Notes under the pieces: generated by a model | Told to the model about the DNA's origin: nothing | Seen by the model: only the letters and a program-made list of their open reading frames with translations | The model's database searches: none | In this document: positions 2,962-28,121 of the stretch, in pieces | Numbering within the stretch: the stretch's first letter is position 1 | How the letters are laid out: each line of letters starts with the position of its first letter | Translations under genes and position numbers: made by a program | From: Clostridia bacterium | Lineage (GTDB): Bacteria > Bacillota > Clostridia > Christensenellales > CAG-1252 | Assembly (NCBI GenBank): GCA_017961365.1 | Contig: JAGCXI010000005.1 | Span: 1 to 38,883 of the forward strand | DNA length: 38,883 nucleotides | Direction: 5' to 3'

Positions 2962-3037
2962 TGGAGCTGCTAACCAGACTTGAACTGGTGACCTCGTCCT
3001 TACCAAGGACGTGCTCTACCGACTGAGCCATAGCAGC
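2962..3037 (-). tRNA. tRNA-Thr (anticodon GGT)
   Basis: The minus strand folds into a full cloverleaf. The acceptor stem is GCTGCTA/TAGCAGC, the D arm GCTC-AGTCGGTA-GAGC, the anticodon stem CGTCC/GGACG with loop TTGGTAA, and the T arm ACCAG-TTCAAGT-CTGGT, with CCA encoded. The anticodon GGT reads ACC/ACT codons, giving threonine. A terminator follows directly. Transcription must come from the promoter at 3142-3170, running through a duplicated half-tRNA first, unless a promoter is hidden in the 53-bp spacer. Confidence 0.97.
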
Positions 3038-3090: not shown

Positions 3091-3128
3091 TTACCAAGGA
3101 CGTGCTCTACCGACTGAGCCATAGCAGC
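3091..3128 (-). pseudogene. Duplicated 5' half of tRNA-Thr (attachment-site scar)
   Basis: These 38 bp are identical to 3000-3037 of the intact tRNA gene. They run from its 5' end through the last base of the anticodon loop, in the same orientation and 53 bp upstream. The identity ends exactly at the anticodon loop, a common crossover point for tyrosine recombinases. The copy has no 3' half and cannot fold into a tRNA. It is most simply the native 5' half left beside the promoter when an element bringing its own 5' half integrated. Confidence 0.75.
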
Positions 3129-3807: not shown

Positions 3808-3932
3808 TGCGAGCTCGTATAAGCGTGCATTGACTTTGTTTCTGTCTGCGGCGGCGTGCGGTTACGTACAGGGAGTACGCGCCCTTCGCCGCCTTGCCGA
3901 GCCTCGTCACTGCACGTTTCTCCGAGCTCGCA
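3808..3932 (-). repeat. Intergenic repeat, copy 1 (minus orientation)
   Basis: Read on the minus strand, this 125-bp unit shares ordered blocks with the copies at 4046-4175 and 27410-27537. These are a GGAGAA start, GTGCAGTGAC, GGCTCGGCAAGGCGGCGAAG, GCGTAC-n5-GTACGT in the centre, CAGACAGAAAC, and a CTTATA end. It is bounded by the inverted repeat TGCGAGCTCG/CGAGCTCGCA. The right-hand gene's ribosome binding site lies just outside it. The stretch 3933-4045 between copies 1 and 2 is AT-rich and holds no gene I can support. Confidence 0.75.
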
Positions 3933-4045: not shown

Positions 4046-4175
4046 CAAGTGACGTGGAGAAGGGTGGCAGATGCAAGGCTCGCCGAGGAGACGGATAGGC
4101 GCGTACTTCTTGTACGTAACTATTCGACGACGAAGGCAGAAACGCCGCAGATGCTCCCTTATCCGCCGTCACTTG
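4046..4175 (+). repeat. Intergenic repeat, copy 2 (plus orientation)
   Basis: This 130-bp unit runs GGAGAAGGGTGGCAGATGC, GGCTCGCCGAGGAGACGGA, GCGTACTTCTTGTACGTAA, CGACGACGAAGGCAGAAAC, GCAGATGCTCCCTTAT. The inverted repeat CAAGTGACG (4046-4054) / CGTCACTTG (4167-4175) closes it. The right arm is the last codons and stop of rlmH, so the left arm looks copied from the gene end, or vice versa. Inside the ends, AAGGG pairs with CCCTT. Confidence 0.75.
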
Positions 4176-4630
4176 TGATAAGGTGTCCCGTGTATAATAC
4201 ACAGCGCGCGGTAGATCTGCTCCAGAAGCACCACGCGGAAGAGCTGGTGCGGCAAAGTGACATCTCCAAAGGAGATCCTTTCATCCGCCGCATTGCGGAC
4301 GGCGTCTGAGACCCCGTTGCTTCCTCCGATTACAAAGGTGAGCTCGCTCTTCCCCGAGAGCACGGCGGCGTCTATCTTCTCTGCGAAGGACTCGCTGGAG
4401 ACCTTCTTTCCGCGGATATCCAAAAGGAAGGTGTATCCTTTGATCTTCTTCAAGATAGATTCGCCTTCGACGGCGCGTTTCGCCTCCACATCCGTGAGGT
4501 GAGCCGCTTCCGCTGCTTCTTCGATCTCCACTTTACACCATTTCCCGAGCCGCTTTACGTACTCTGCGACGGCTTCTCGATAAAATCCTTCTTTGATGCC
4601 GCCCACGGCGACCACTCTGATCTTCAGCAT
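4169..4630 (-). CDS. rlmH: 23S rRNA (pseudouridine1915-N3)-methyltransferase RlmH
   Basis: RlmH is an SPOUT-class enzyme that uses SAM to methylate N3 of pseudouridine 1915 in helix 69 of 23S rRNA. The 153 residues match the family's usual length. Visible family features are the N-terminal strand MLKIRVVAVGGIKEGFYREA, the SAM-binding knot segment LTFVIGGSNGVSDAV, and the conserved tail LPHQLFRVVLLEQIYRA...GTPYHK. Although the frame is open upstream, MLKI is the family N-terminus and is chosen as the start. No ribosome binding site precedes it; a promoter -10 box ends six bases before the ATG, so the message is probably leaderless. The 3' end forms one arm of the adjacent intergenic repeat. 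Confidence 0.95.
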   Translation of the reverse strand: MLKIRVVAVGGIKEGFYREAVAEYVKRLGKWCKVEIEEAAEAAHLTDVEAKRAVEGESILKKIKGYTFLLDIRGKKVSSESFAEKIDAAVLSGKSELTFVIGGSNGVSDAVRNAADERISFGDVTLPHQLFRVVLLEQIYRALCIIHGTPYHK

Positions 4631-4636
4631 AAAGAT

Positions 4637-4665
4637 ATTATATATGAAGCGGCGAAATATTGCAA
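4637..4665 (-). promoter_or_regulatory. Promoter giving a leaderless rlmH message
   Basis: On the minus strand TTGCAA (4660-4665), a 17-bp spacer and a perfect TATAAT (4637-4642) are present. The rlmH ATG begins seven bases past the -10 box, where transcription is expected to start. Confidence 0.75.
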
Positions 4666-4743
4666 ATATTTCCGAGGGAGAAGAGGGCGCGGGGCATTTC
4701 GAAAAACCTTTTGAAAACTTAATAAGCAATCTTTCTTAAATAT

Positions 4744-16131: not shown

Positions 16132-17572
16132 AACCGATCGGCAGCGGCGTATAGAGCCATCGCTCGAGGGTCTCTTTCGTCTCTTTGCCGAGCGCGTCTT
16201 CCATCGCGGCGAGGAAGTCCTCCGGCGACGCGATCTTGCCTGCATAGGCGTCGGCATAGCGTCGAAGCGCGGCGTTCACCTCGGCGAAAGAGCGCGTTTC
16301 CGCAAGGGAGATCATCATCAAAAGTCCCTTGGAATAAGCGGTCTCGACATATCCTTCTTCTCCTGCGGAAAGAGGACGATCCACTTGCGTGTGCCCCTTT
16401 ACTGCGGCGAAAAAGGAGTAATCGTCTTCCGCTGCGGCGATCTTTTTTCGATAAAGCAGGTCGGCGTTATGCGACTTGTAATAATAAGCGACGGCGTATT
16501 CCGCGAGCGCTTCGTCCTGCCAAGGATGGAGGATCTCGTCGCTCCCTGCCTTTCCATGCCACCATTCATGCGCCGCTTCATGTAAAACGGCGCTTTTACG
16601 CTCGGAGGCGGAAAGGTCTTTGTCGATCATCGCGAGCCCGGAGTACTCCATCCCCGCCTCGAAGAAGGGAGCTTGGACGACGGTGAAAGAAGGATAGGGA
16701 AAGGCGCCGAAAGCCGCTTCATAGGTGCGGATCGCTTCTTGGATGTAGGCGAGGGTGTCCGCGCTTTTCGCGTCCTTTTCATAGCAATAACGGATCTTGA
16801 TGCCGCCCGCCTCTCCCTCTGTGGCGAGGAGACGGGAGGAGATCACGCAGGCAAAGTCTCGCGCTTCTTTCAGCTCGTAGCGGCAGATATTCTCTTTGCC
16901 GCAGCTTTCCCGCTCGAGGGGCAGGGCGGATGCCGCCGTAAGCGTCCCGACGGGGCTGATCACGGTGACGGAAAAATTCGCCGTTTCAAGATAAAAGGGG
17001 TCTCCGTAAGGGGTGTAAGGATCGTAGCGATATTTCCCGTTTCGGAAGGGGCATAGCGCGGGATAAAAGGAAGAAAGCATATAATATCCGTCCGCATAGC
17101 CGAGTCTGTGCTTGACGTTTGCGAGGGTGACGAGGGTGCGCAGGGTGAGTGTGATCTCTTCGCCGCAGAGCAATTTTTGCGCAAAACGCACGGTCAAAAG
17201 GGTATTGTCTTCCGCGCCGATCTCATAATGAAGCAATTCTTTGCTCGCGCTTAGTTCCGTGATCTCGCATCCGCCGTAGCTCGCCCCGTTCGGATAGGCG
17301 GAGGCGACGCGGCTCGGGGAGACGACGAGATCTTGATACGCATTTGCGTATAGTCGCAGTTTTACGGCGGAGAGCCCCTCTTGCGGCACGATATAACGGA
17401 TCTCGGTCGTGACGTCCGCTTGATTCGTTTCGGAAAGGAGGGTCGCCGTGATCGAATAATTCGGGATGTGATCCCCCTTCTCTTCGGGATCTTCCTTTTG
17501 CGGGGTTTTTACGCAAGCAGCGAAGCTTGCAGCGAGAAAAATGAGGAAGAGGCAGATGCCGATCTTTTTCAT
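16130..17572 (-). CDS. M1-family metallopeptidase lipoprotein
   Basis: A 480-residue protein with a lipoprotein signal (residues 1-20, lipobox ASFAAC). An N-terminal beta domain precedes a gluzincin domain with GMEYSGLAMID (the GxMEN equivalent), zinc motif HEAAH at 331-335, third ligand E354 exactly 18 residues later, and a candidate catalytic Tyr 413 in AYSKG. It is shorter than aminopeptidase N (about 850) and lacks the C-terminal helical repeats. It should cleave peptides outside the membrane. The start ATG overlaps the stop of the PRC-barrel gene (ATGA); the frame opens further upstream, but only this start gives the signal peptide. Confidence 0.88.
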   Translation of the reverse strand: MKKIGICLFLIFLAASFAACVKTPQKEDPEEKGDHIPNYSITATLLSETNQADVTTEIRYIVPQEGLSAVKLRLYANAYQDLVVSPSRVASAYPNGASYGGCEITELSASKELLHYEIGAEDNTLLTVRFAQKLLCGEEITLTLRTLVTLANVKHRLGYADGYYMLSSFYPALCPFRNGKYRYDPYTPYGDPFYLETANFSVTVISPVGTLTAASALPLERESCGKENICRYELKEARDFACVISSRLLATEGEAGGIKIRYCYEKDAKSADTLAYIQEAIRTYEAAFGAFPYPSFTVVQAPFFEAGMEYSGLAMIDKDLSASERKSAVLHEAAHEWWHGKAGSDEILHPWQDEALAEYAVAYYYKSHNADLLYRKKIAAAEDDYSFFAAVKGHTQVDRPLSAGEEGYVETAYSKGLLMMISLAETRSFAEVNAALRRYADAYAGKIASPEDFLAAMEDALGKETKETLERWLYTPLPIG

Positions 17573-24718: not shown

Positions 24719-27424
24719 ATGAAAAAAATAATGATAGCGATATTACTGCTCATCCCGATATTGATCATTCTCACGATCAGTGCGAGTGGTCTTCTCATCG
24801 CGTCCGCTTTCGTGGATATCCCGGCGGAGTCCATTCGGCTGAAGCATAGCGGCGAAGAGGTGACGGGAGAAGAGATCATTCTCGAAGAGCAGAACGCTTT
24901 GCGGAAGTATACCTTGATTTGCGACGTTTTCCCGGGGATCGCGACGGATGAATTCGTCTGGGAATCTTCCGATCCGAAGATCGCAAAGGTCACTCCCTCG
25001 AAGAGTAGGAAAGACGCCGCCGAAGTGGAATTTCTCGATTACGGCAGCGTGGATATCACTTGCACGTCCAAGAAGAATACTTCCGTCAATGCGCGCGCCA
25101 CGTTCTATGTGACGGGTAGGATCCCGGGATATCTTTTGATCGGGGATTATGAAGGCGAGACCTTCTCCGAGCTTTCTTTGCGACAATACGAGACAAAGAG
25201 TCTTCTCGCTTCCGTCAAGCCCGCGGTCAGCGTGCGCGCGGAAAAAGTGCAATGGTCGAGCTCGGATGAGAGCGTCGTGCGCGTGGATAATAACGGTGTG
25301 GTGCAGGCGCTTTCGGAAGGAAACGCCGTGATCTCCGCGACGGTGACGGCTTCCGGGAAGACGGTCTCGAACGAGGTCAATGTCCGCGTCTCGGGCACGG
25401 CACTTTTGAAAGAGTCTGTCCTTTATACGACGGCGTCCTCACTCTCGGTCTCCGAATGCGGCTGTCTTGCCGACGAGGATGCGACGGCGGAAGGCGGGGG
25501 TCTCCTTGATCTCTCGCATACGCCCGTTTTCGGCGCGATGCAGGTGAAGGTAAAGAAAGGGGATCGCGAGGAGACCTTGACGGTCGTAAAAGTGGCGTCT
25601 CTCAAGACTCTCGTCATCGAGAATATTTTCGCTTTGAAGAGCGGTGCGCTCTCGAATTTCCTTTCGCTCGGCACGTCTAACGTCGAGCTCCGCGCGGTGG
25701 CTTTGGACGGTTCTTCGCCCGCCATTCGCTGGATGAGCACGAATACGGACGTTGCGGACGTACTGCAGGGCAGGATCTATGCCAAGGGAAGCGGCGAGGC
25801 GGAGATTTATGCGGAGGCGGAGGGATATGCTTCTCAGCGTGTCACCGTCAACGTGACGAGCACCGTGGATGATTTCCGTCTCTCTGAGACGGAATATATG
25901 GACAAAGTTGGGCTTTTGCAAGAGCGTGTCTTCGGAAACGTCTCTTATATCAATGGGACTTACACCAAGCGTTATGCGCTCACCGTACGTTCCTATCCCG
26001 AAGACGTCGGCATCGAGTCTTACACCTTCGACAGCACGAATAAGGACGTCGCCACGGTGGATAGCGAGGGCGTCGTGACCTTTGCGGATGACGTGGACGG
26101 CGAGAGCTGCACCATCACCGCCACGGCGTATAATCAAGACGGACTGCCCGTGAGAAGGAGTTACACCTTTAATCTCGTAAACGGCGTGAATGTCGGCGTA
26201 GGCGTCCCGAAGGCGCATTTCGACGCCTCGAAAGGGGAGAAGCCCTCTTTCGCCCCGTATTGGGATCTGCGGACGGTCCTTTCGGATGCGAGCACCAAGG
26301 GCGTCGTCTTGCATACGGACGTTTATTATCCCGCGAAAGCAGATGGCGGCGCCGCCTTGAAAAACGTTACGGTGCCCATTTACGGCAATGGAAATAAGCT
26401 CGACGGACAGTTCTTCATGGAGTCTGTGGAGTTTGACGAGATGCTCCTCCTTTGGGACTTCTCTTCTTTCACCAAAGAGACGATGCCCGCCTCCCTTGAC
26501 GTGACCGTCTCGAATCTGAATATGCAGGCGACGCAGCCCACCACGGAGGATTCCAAAGAGACTTTTGAGGAGCTCAGCCATTCGGGTGGCGGCGCGATCA
26601 GCTTGATCGGGAATTATCCGGATCCTTCCTATCATATGAGCCTCACGGTGAAAGGCTGTCTCTTCCAATATGCGTACAGCCATATCAACGTCGCGATCGG
26701 CGATATCTTTGTGGACGGCTGTATCCTGCGCAATAACGCCGCTTCCGCCATCGTGTTGCAAGAGTCCGATTATTGCCGCGCAAGCGCGAAGATAAAGAAC
26801 TGCATTTTCAGCCATACCATCGCGCCCGTGGTGATCGCTTGCGGAAATTTCGATGAAGTCGTGGATAGCTTTTCCAAAAATAAGAATACAAATGCGGTCG
26901 ACTTCGGGTTTTTCGAATTTGAAGGCGAGAACTACGTTTATAATTGGAAGAAACTCGATGAAGTGCAGATGAATATCCTGCCGCAAAAGGATGACGAAAC
27001 CGTGCAACTTTTGGTGGCATCCTTCAGCGATTTTTTAGGTACGGTGATCCGCGAAGCCTTTAAGCTGTCCGACGAAGGGAATTTCTACGTGGATAAAGAC
27101 GGCGAAACGTGGCTGAATTTCTCCTTCTTGGTCATCGGTATTTGGCAGGATATGAACCCGCATTTCAATGAGAGCACTTATCAGGCGGATGGATTAAACG
27201 TGCGCTTCAATGAGAAGATGTATGCGGTGTACGAGGTCCATCCTGAAGAGGTGCAGAGTATCAGTAAGCTTGTCGGTAAGTTTAAAAAGATCATCGATAT
27301 CGAGAAGAATAAGACCTATCATATCGTCAGCAAGGACGCGAAGGGGCATTGGAATACGATGCCGGGGGAGAATTACGAGATAGATGATACGGTACGCGCG
27401 CGCTTAATGGGCGAGCGTGTATAA
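24719..27424 (+). CDS. Large exported protein with Ig-like (BIG2) and beta-helix regions
   Basis: A 901-residue protein with an N-terminal signal anchor (about 3-32). Roughly four bacterial Ig-like group 2 domains follow, seen as WESSDPKIAKVTPS, WSSSDESVVRVDNNGVVQAL, WMSTNTDVADVLQGRIYAKG and FDSTNKDVATVDSEGVVTF. Residues about 500-760 form a right-handed beta-helix-like region with repeated short strands and Asn turns (LKNVTVPIYGNGNKLDG, VKGCLFQYAYSHINVAIGDI, VDGCILRNNAASAIVL). There is no sortase motif. It may bind or modify a surface polysaccharide. The ribosome binding site is weak; a 14-codon TTG-led frame with an AAAGGAG site ends 9 bases upstream and could couple translation. The 3' end forms an arm of the next intergenic repeat. 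Confidence 0.82.
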   Translation: MKKIMIAILLLIPILIILTISASGLLIASAFVDIPAESIRLKHSGEEVTGEEIILEEQNALRKYTLICDVFPGIATDEFVWESSDPKIAKVTPSKSRKDAAEVEFLDYGSVDITCTSKKNTSVNARATFYVTGRIPGYLLIGDYEGETFSELSLRQYETKSLLASVKPAVSVRAEKVQWSSSDESVVRVDNNGVVQALSEGNAVISATVTASGKTVSNEVNVRVSGTALLKESVLYTTASSLSVSECGCLADEDATAEGGGLLDLSHTPVFGAMQVKVKKGDREETLTVVKVASLKTLVIENIFALKSGALSNFLSLGTSNVELRAVALDGSSPAIRWMSTNTDVADVLQGRIYAKGSGEAEIYAEAEGYASQRVTVNVTSTVDDFRLSETEYMDKVGLLQERVFGNVSYINGTYTKRYALTVRSYPEDVGIESYTFDSTNKDVATVDSEGVVTFADDVDGESCTITATAYNQDGLPVRRSYTFNLVNGVNVGVGVPKAHFDASKGEKPSFAPYWDLRTVLSDASTKGVVLHTDVYYPAKADGGAALKNVTVPIYGNGNKLDGQFFMESVEFDEMLLLWDFSSFTKETMPASLDVTVSNLNMQATQPTTEDSKETFEELSHSGGGAISLIGNYPDPSYHMSLTVKGCLFQYAYSHINVAIGDIFVDGCILRNNAASAIVLQESDYCRASAKIKNCIFSHTIAPVVIACGNFDEVVDSFSKNKNTNAVDFGFFEFEGENYVYNWKKLDEVQMNILPQKDDETVQLLVASFSDFLGTVIREAFKLSDEGNFYVDKDGETWLNFSFLVIGIWQDMNPHFNESTYQADGLNVRFNEKMYAVYEVHPEEVQSISKLVGKFKKIIDIEKNKTYHIVSKDAKGHWNTMPGENYEIDDTVRARLMGERV

Positions 27425-27537
27425 GGGCGCATCTACGTCGCTAACTTCCTCGCTCGTCGGGCATCACGTACGGAAAGTACGCTCAGGTCCGCCTCCTCGG
27501 AGAGCGCTCGTATCTGCAACCCTTCTCCACGCTCGCC
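27410..27537 (-). repeat. Intergenic repeat, copy 3 (minus orientation)
   Basis: On the minus strand this unit runs GTGGAGAAGGGTTGCAGATA, CTCTCCGAGGAGGCGGA, GCGTACTTTCCGTACGT, CGACGAGCGAGGAAG, TAGATGCGCCCTTAT, matching the copies at 3808 and 4046 in order. Its terminal inverted repeat is GGCGAGCGTG (27410-27419, the last codons of the 901-residue gene) with CACGCTCGCC (27528-27537). Confidence 0.75.
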
Positions 27538-27581: not shown

Positions 27582-27676
27582 GCTCGTATTTGCAGCACTC
27601 TTCGCCGACACCTTATATTTTTTCTGTATAGAAAGGCCTCGCCGAGCCTTACATCTGCACGCTTCTCCGCGCTCAA
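27582..27676 (-). repeat. Two fragments of the intergenic repeat
   Basis: On the plus strand, 27582-27609 (GCTCGTATTTGCAGCACTCT and onward) matches the CTCGTATCTGCAACCCTTCT end of copy 3. 27636-27676 (CCTCGCCGAGCCTTACATCT, then GCACGCTTCTCC) matches the same end of copies 1 and 2. Both contain only the element's GGAGAA-side portion; the centre and far end are missing. The remaining DNA to 27711 holds no gene I can see. Confidence 0.6.
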
Positions 27677-27811: not shown

Positions 27812-27841
27812 TAAAAAATGCCCCGCAACTACGGGGCATTT
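27812..27841 (-). terminator. Terminator of the Cys-rich protein gene
   Basis: AAATGCCCCG (27816-27825) pairs perfectly with CGGGGCATTT (27832-27841). A T-tract follows on the minus strand, 11 bp past the stop codon. Confidence 0.92.
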
Positions 27842-27851
27842 CTTTCGCTTT

Positions 27852-28037
27852 TTACTTGCAGCCGAAGCCGTAGTTCGGAGCGTCCTTGCAGCCACAGCCG
27901 CAGCCGCCGCAGCAGAGGAGCAGGTAGAGGATGATGATGGTGTCGATATTGCATCCGCCGCACTTATTCCCGCATCCGCCGCAGCAGAAGAGCAGGAGCA
28001 AGAGCCATAAACAGTCGTTGTTACAGAAATTGTTCAT
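27852..28037 (-). CDS. Cys/Gly-rich 61-residue protein
   Basis: The protein has alternating hydrophobic runs and cysteine clusters: [50 protein letters not shown] and a [11 protein letters not shown] end. A GGAGGT ribosome binding site seven bases upstream and a textbook terminator just downstream show it is a real single-gene unit. Databases of Clostridia contain many such peptides, often labelled chorion-class high-cysteine (HCB) protein; no function is established. The two [11 protein letters not shown] modules look like an internal duplication. A structural role in the spore coat or a membrane-associated metal-rich aggregate are possibilities, not evidence. The opposite-strand frame over the same bases is a shadow. 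Confidence 0.8.
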
Positions 28038-28121
28038 ACTATGTACCTCCGTGTATTTCCAAAAGTATTTGGTTCTACTTCATCATACGCATTGAATTTT
28101 CGTTTTGCTACTTTCCTATGC

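Follow-up and report, generated by a model that had tools for sequence, protein, structure and literature searches.

ERIC repeats have been known since 1990-91, and to our knowledge their mode of movement has never been shown. They were described from Enterobacteriaceae and Vibrionaceae (PMC10969869); their terminal inverted repeat of 7 bp is conserved, and they have a TA motif that goes with a target-site duplication (PMC2229807). The Yersinia palindromic element YPAL (RU-2, 168 bp) makes direct target-site duplications of 3-26 bp, at targets that span or adjoin dyad symmetry (PMC2229807), and template-switch mutation writes a reverse-complement copy in one event, which gives a perfect stem and RNA hairpins (PMC8794818). 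The repeat analysed here is, like ERIC (IRU, RU-1), an imperfect hairpin of about 127 bp that is non-coding, occurs dispersed and lies near genes, and the tip GAGC-NNAC-loop-GTNN-GTGA is common to both. Unlike ERIC sensu stricto, it lacks a TA target-site duplication, and a locus-specific terminal stem stands in the place of the conserved terminal inverted repeat. It is palindromic and dispersed like YPAL, a likeness drawn from published descriptions. Whereas template-switch cases are sporadic and of variable length, the stem described below recurs at the same place in the element and measures 10 or 20 nt.

The window, that is the whole stretch of 38,883 nucleotides analysed, contains three full copies. 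We orient the element as P1 left-GGAGA-P2-...-GAGCGTAC(loop)GTACGTGA-...-P2'-TATAC-P1 right, where P1 is the outer stem, and copies were scored with a covariance model, R1, built from 36 copies. Copy 1 (3808..3932, minus strand, 103.6 bits) has the arms TGCGAGCTCG at 3808 and CGAGCTCGCA at 3923. It lies in sense orientation directly 5' of the Shine-Dalgarno sequence and ATG (3799, minus) of the gene that follows rlmH. Copy 2 (4046..4175, plus strand, 104.2 bits) has a far arm, CAAGTGACG, at 4046-4054 and a gene-side arm, CGTCACTTG, at 4167-4175. The latter is the last codon AAG, the stop TGA and CG of rlmH, read in reverse; this gene (4169..4729, minus strand) encodes a SPOUT methyltransferase (PF02590, E 1.6e-50) and carries the copy 2 target at its 3' end. 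Copy 3 (27410..27537, minus strand, 141.3 bits) is made of a gene-side arm, GGCGAGCGTG, at 27410-27419, a core at 27420-27527 and a far arm, CACGCTCGCC, at 27528-27537. Its gene-side arm consists of the codons GGC GAG CGT (G-E-R) at the end of the gene for a large Big_2-domain protein (24719..27424, plus strand). An earlier note on this DNA had claimed that the outer arms of the three copies pair perfectly, that they are unrelated in sequence and that one arm in copies 2 and 3 is the end of the neighbouring gene. We found all three arm pairs in place with perfect stems of 9-10 bp (n=3 copies), and the coding origin holds for both copies. The arms of copies 1 and 3 are related, both containing GCGAGC, and a weak consensus C-G-A-N-N-G-C runs through the genus. 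All three regions fold into structures far more stable than those of dinucleotide shuffles (z between -4.6 and -6.7, taking the stabler strand in every case).

Partial copies and other features lie around these elements. A solo left half (GAGCGCGGAGAAGCGTGCAGATGTAAGGCTCG..) at 27636..27674 on the minus strand is 79% identical to the corresponding part of copy 1 (family D14). It belongs to a tandem array of solo left half-elements at 27583-27674, and similar arrays occur 5' of a TrmL-like gene at four other loci (L007, L010, L011 and L013). Such halves, of about 35-60 nt, are composed of the left arm, P2 and a local hairpin of the GAGCGCTC type; they accumulate to the left of full elements and their arms resemble the local stem. 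Matching solo right halves were not noticed alongside these arrays. A short ORF rich in Cys, Gly and Leu stands beside copy 3 (27853-28038, minus) with its own terminator at 27820-27842. At 2965-3037 there is a tRNA gene (minus), followed at 3091-3128 by an exact 38-bp duplicate of one tRNA half. At the gathering score, Rfam returned only a tRNA in the window and no match in seven superfamily loci.

We then looked at the family in 13 species of one Christensenellales genus, taking one genome per species (labelled G000 onward; MAGs 71-97% complete). The members with names in public records carry Christensenella labels or are listed as rumen and gut MAGs of Clostridia (UBA1252, UBA3217, UBA3770, UBA3798, RGIG3658, RGIG3617). 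They contain more than 500 repeats in total: R1 found 23-85 copies in 12 of the 13 species, compared with 3 in G007, which is also the sole genome with a reverse transcriptase match. A family definition by BLAST alone was abandoned, as it gave 7-17 copies in most species and missed most of those reached with the structure model. Type B copies carry AAGGC at -24/-25 and AACGC at +21 to +24 from the tip; type A copies keep the tip and not these two boxes. The core of the element is clearly constrained in structure, and conserved U.G pairs in P2 favour the strand shown. From its dispersed copies and from orthologous sites with and without the element, we infer that it is a non-coding mobile hairpin.

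Pairing of the outer stem was measured in 153 copies from nine genomes. The paired fraction going outward from the core is 0.97 at each of the first seven positions, then 0.91, 0.87, 0.67 and 0.44, and beyond the stem it falls to a background of about 0.35. As R1 includes P1, the copy set is mildly biased toward paired copies. Controls that joined the left arm of one copy to the right arm of another paired at 0.52-0.87 over the inner seven positions, because of the weak left-arm consensus across the genus. All nine outer positions were paired in 108 of the 153 real copies compared with 103 of 3000 mismatched controls, so that the chance pairing which the earlier note had named as one possible refutation does not apply. 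The other, copies without an outer stem, does exist as a minority: the perfect run is shorter than 6 bp, the stem being absent or broken, in 36 of 214 copies. Covariation is present as well: in an alignment of 36 copies, each of the nine P1 pairs has changed on both sides, and the structure as a whole has a covariation score of 0.478, where shuffling gives 0.180 (0/500).

The length of the stems falls into two classes. Among the 214 copies, perfect runs of 8, 9 and 10 bp are frequent (41, 53 and 40 copies), 11 and 12 bp are rare (8 copies and 1), 13-18 bp do not occur, and runs of 19 bp (1 copy) and 20 bp (2 copies) form a separate group. Further long stems are near-perfect: 19 bp with 1 mismatch in G008 (L187), about 21 bp with 2 mismatches in G005 (L257) and, read by eye, about 20 nt with 1 mismatch at gpmI of G008. 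Stems of 19-21 bp cannot be reached by background extension. Mismatches in good stems are G.T in 42 cases, A.C in 25 and others in 65.

The stem and the core are decoupled. Stem identity rises only from about 0.42 for cores 40-50% identical to about 0.53-0.60 for cores 90-95% identical, while the stem is retained in orthologous pairs. We took 39 pairs of copies from different loci with middle parts identical to 93% or more: the identity of their stems is 0.548 (permuted 0.459 ± 0.035), and that of the adjoining P2 arms 0.841 (permuted 0.564 ± 0.039). For instance, one copy of G008 (L186) and one of G010 (L206) have a common core out to GGAGA and TATAC and differ in their stems, ATAAACAGC/GCTGTTTAT versus TGCGAACGT/ACGTTCGCC. 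Stem identity is nearly independent of core identity; the stem therefore belongs to the locus.

The element also has a marked strand and position bias. Of 149 copies, 104 (about 70%) have an antisense gene as right-hand neighbour, and most of these genes finish no more than about 16 nt from the element end, usually at or inside the right arm. The left neighbour is randomly oriented (70:69) and distant (median about 160 nt). A first reverse stop codon lies at outward positions 8-10 in 73 of the 153 copies, and some copies supply the stop themselves, as copy 3 does with GTATAA, which provides the TAA of the 24719-27424 gene. The long arms, too, are coding ends: WSSIQ-TGA in G005, where the G000 orthologue ends WSSIQ-TAA; FGGRR-TGA in G000, a gene end also present in G001, where a deletion between direct repeats has removed the left arm; and GHSLIER at gpmI.

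Relatives without the element show where the gene-side arm comes from. At gpmI, the unoccupied orthologues end GHSLIKR-stop (G011), GHSLIKH-stop (G004), GHSLIVH-stop (G007) and GHSLIEG-stop (G006), and in G012, G008, G000 and G009, where an element is present, the arms are made of these terminal codons. The G012 arm is GGCACAGCCTGATAGAGCGC (codons G-H-S-L-I-E-R), 19 nt of which stand inverted beyond the core; that of G000 is nine nt, ATCAAACAC (codons I-K-H). In G001, 98% identical to G000 beside the site, the gene end is present and the far arm absent. Near 16330 of locus L267, at the unoccupied gpmI site of G011, there is an intrinsic terminator, GCAGGAGCGTAC-TT-GTACGTTCCTGC, with a stem similar to the element tip, by chance or as a relic. 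At rlmH, the YHK-stop end occurs with no abutting element in G007, G002, G009, G006 and G004, and in G000, G001, G008, G012 and G010 the element is there and its arms hold AAG and TGA, wholly or partly. Where rlmH has no element, about 10 nt separate it from the next gene in G007 and G002; in the window, copies 1 and 2 fill this junction. Relatives of the 24719-27424 gene end RLRGED-stop, RLRGEAA-stop and, in G010, RLRGERTQESA-stop (GGC GAA CGC).

Neither direct target-site duplications nor an excess of TA..TA or direct repeats was found at the element ends, and no clean empty site was seen in the first contigs examined. G000 and G001 are the only close pair, with most copies common to both; G005 and G012 are close at one locus only (97%). 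Three candidate empty sites between G000 and G001 proved to be two decayed or truncated copies and one highly diverged site. Between these two genomes the stems are mostly unchanged and some are broken, rather than compensated. At a D-Tyr-tRNA deacylase-like gene end (G000:C47:8242, L046; G001:C43:5482, L244), where the left flank is about 99% identical, the two left arms have changed places, and in each case the right arm corresponds to the left arm that adjoins the core. Orthologous stems of G000 (GGCGAGCGT/ACGCTCGCC) and G008 (GGTGAACGT/ACGTTCACC) differ by synonymous codon changes that the far arm reproduces; re-copying or compensation once the element is inserted would also be consistent with this.

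We propose, with a probability of roughly 0.6, that the core is copied to gene ends and that 10 or about 20 nt of the target are written in inverted form onto its far end, giving the locus-specific stem. The transmissible unit would be the core, about 108 nt from GGAGA to TATAC, and it would be copied to new places mostly at the 3' end of a gene (stop codon), antisense to it. The 3' end of the gene strand would be joined to the core or extended through it, the joined core strand would fold as a hairpin, and its 3' end would then be elongated with the target segment, part of this same strand, as template (fold-back or snap-back synthesis). The 10 nt of gene strand preceding the junction would in this way be copied once, inverted, onto the far end of the core, and about 20 nt in a minority of cases, which would correspond to one or two helical turns. 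The closing stem would thus consist of the target and its inverted copy, with a sequence differing at each locus. Of the two explanations put forward in the earlier note, such inverted copying of the target is the one supported, because the stem is decoupled from the core, the gene-side arm is kept as coding sequence in element-free relatives, pairing stops sharply at 10 bp and the three perfect copies of 19-20 nt include coding sequence; selection on RNA pairing alone is not supported. We infer that the copying takes place during insertion, most simply by fold-back synthesis, and the build of the stem points to an insertion mode not yet described. Points against this proposal are that long perfect stems number only three, that the P2 arm is itself partly decoupled (0.84), as gene conversion between copies would yield, that the far arms of orthologous stems reproduce synonymous changes, and that the search model includes P1.

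The main rival is template switching after insertion, in ordinary replication, whereby the polymerase would copy one arm from the other and repeatedly rewrite the far arm to the gene end. We consider it unlikely. It accounts for stems that track synonymous changes, and leaves the length classes unexplained. As a process it is known to make and repair perfect stems (PMC8794818). It would also account for the near-identical DTD locus of G000 and G001 with its altered arms, and it needs no dedicated enzyme, no reverse transcriptase or Y1 mover being supported in the 13 genomes. However, it predicts tracts of variable length, where the observed lengths end at 10 and those of 19-20 form a class of their own, and in G001 the stem of copy 3 is broken (AAGCTCGCC) and stays unrepaired.

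That the stem belongs to the element, drifts, and is kept paired by compensatory substitutions under selection on an RNA or single-stranded DNA hairpin seems to us improbable. The strong covariation, the U.G pairs of P2 that favour one strand, the weak stem consensus and the excess of G.T over A.C mismatches (73 to 44 in all copies) would all fit such selection, but stem identity is barely linked to core identity, the perfect 19-20 nt copies include coding sequence and the mismatch spectrum is near that of random decay. The G.T to A.C asymmetry was dropped as proof of RNA selection, having first stood at 40:12 and then fallen to the above figures, with 42:25 in good stems. Making P1 does not require selection on RNA pairing, which is probably secondary there and may help to preserve stems that already exist. 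We give very little credence to the idea that perfect palindromes or terminator stems were there beforehand and received the core at their centre. Some copies do adjoin terminator U-tracts (L027, L031), and YPAL repeats target dyad symmetry (PMC2229807), but this reading is largely refuted at two loci, gpmI and rlmH, whose unoccupied orthologues show the coding end with no inverted partner.

Candidate movers were sought in the same 13 genomes, which are incomplete MAGs (71-97%). Reverse transcriptase (PF00078) was found in only one of them, the copy-poor G007, and mobilisation by such an enzyme (group II intron, retron) is not supported, none having been found in the 12 others. The Y1 transposase (PF01797) was found in only 4 of the 13 incomplete genomes and not in the other 9, including the copy-rich G000, G001, G005 and G010, and the repeat was accordingly not assigned to the REP/RAYT group. 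It is like REP/REPIN with RAYT (Y1 transposase) in forming dispersed hairpins with one functional strand; unlike them, it has no identified GTAG-type tagged REP unit.

We scanned 84,980 species genomes for the pattern TGAGCGTACN{4,6}GTACGTGAT. Matches outside the genus fell in Pseudomonas, Stutzerimonas, Azotobacter, Arcobacter, Aliarcobacter, Magnetococcales, Desulfobacterales, Cocleimonas, Clostridiaceae M8S5, Providencia and Citrobacter; this breadth is a lower bound and the tip is fixed there by construction, because the matches were selected by an exact pattern. They fold as long hairpins, and R1 lengthens most of them to full-length matches, with scores that reach 55 bits (Aliarcobacter) and 47 bits (Pseudomonas), compared with about 24 for the pattern alone. 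In most, AAGGC or a one-letter variant precedes the tip by about 24-26 nt, and AACGC or a variant follows it at about 20-24 nt; these boxes played no part in the scan pattern. AAGGC lies at -24 to -26 and AACGC at +19 to +24 in Proteobacteria, Campylobacterota and Clostridiaceae; in Providencia and Citrobacter they lie 26 nt 5' and 21 nt 3'. E. coli ERIC copies, located with the joined ERIC-PCR primer sequences, have the same plan, with AAGGC at -26 and the tip GAGCTTAC-ATAA-GTAAGTGA. The R1 search did not reach them, whereas a broader model, R2, built without enterobacterial sequences, matches both E. coli ERIC copies exactly in place (L204/L205, 1449-1598) with 34 bits and an E of 5e-7 (short calibration), as well as several Providencia copies outside the pattern-selected set. 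In six loci of other Clostridia and related MAGs (L082, L109, L111, L113, L117 and L132), superfamily elements stand in direct tandem at a spacing of about 130-250 nt.

From the two covariance models, the fixed geometry and the E. coli matches, we conclude that ERIC and the Christensenellales repeat form one superfamily. The Christensenellales repeat belongs to a cross-phylum extension of the ERIC family that was previously unnoticed; our search of openly accessible literature found no report of ERIC beyond Enterobacteriaceae and Vibrionaceae. The wider picture is put forward tentatively, at a little short of even odds: an ERIC-type superfamily spread across phyla, with one branch or more using fold-back transposition at gene ends, by which one or two helical turns of the target would be duplicated in inverted rather than direct orientation. 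If it is true, each insertion would make its terminal inverted repeat out of host gene sequence, and the inverted target copy of 10 or 20 nt would be a direct footprint of the mechanism and a route to the enzyme. Perfectly paired, covarying stems could then arise without RNA selection, which would be a warning for RNA discovery based on covariation.
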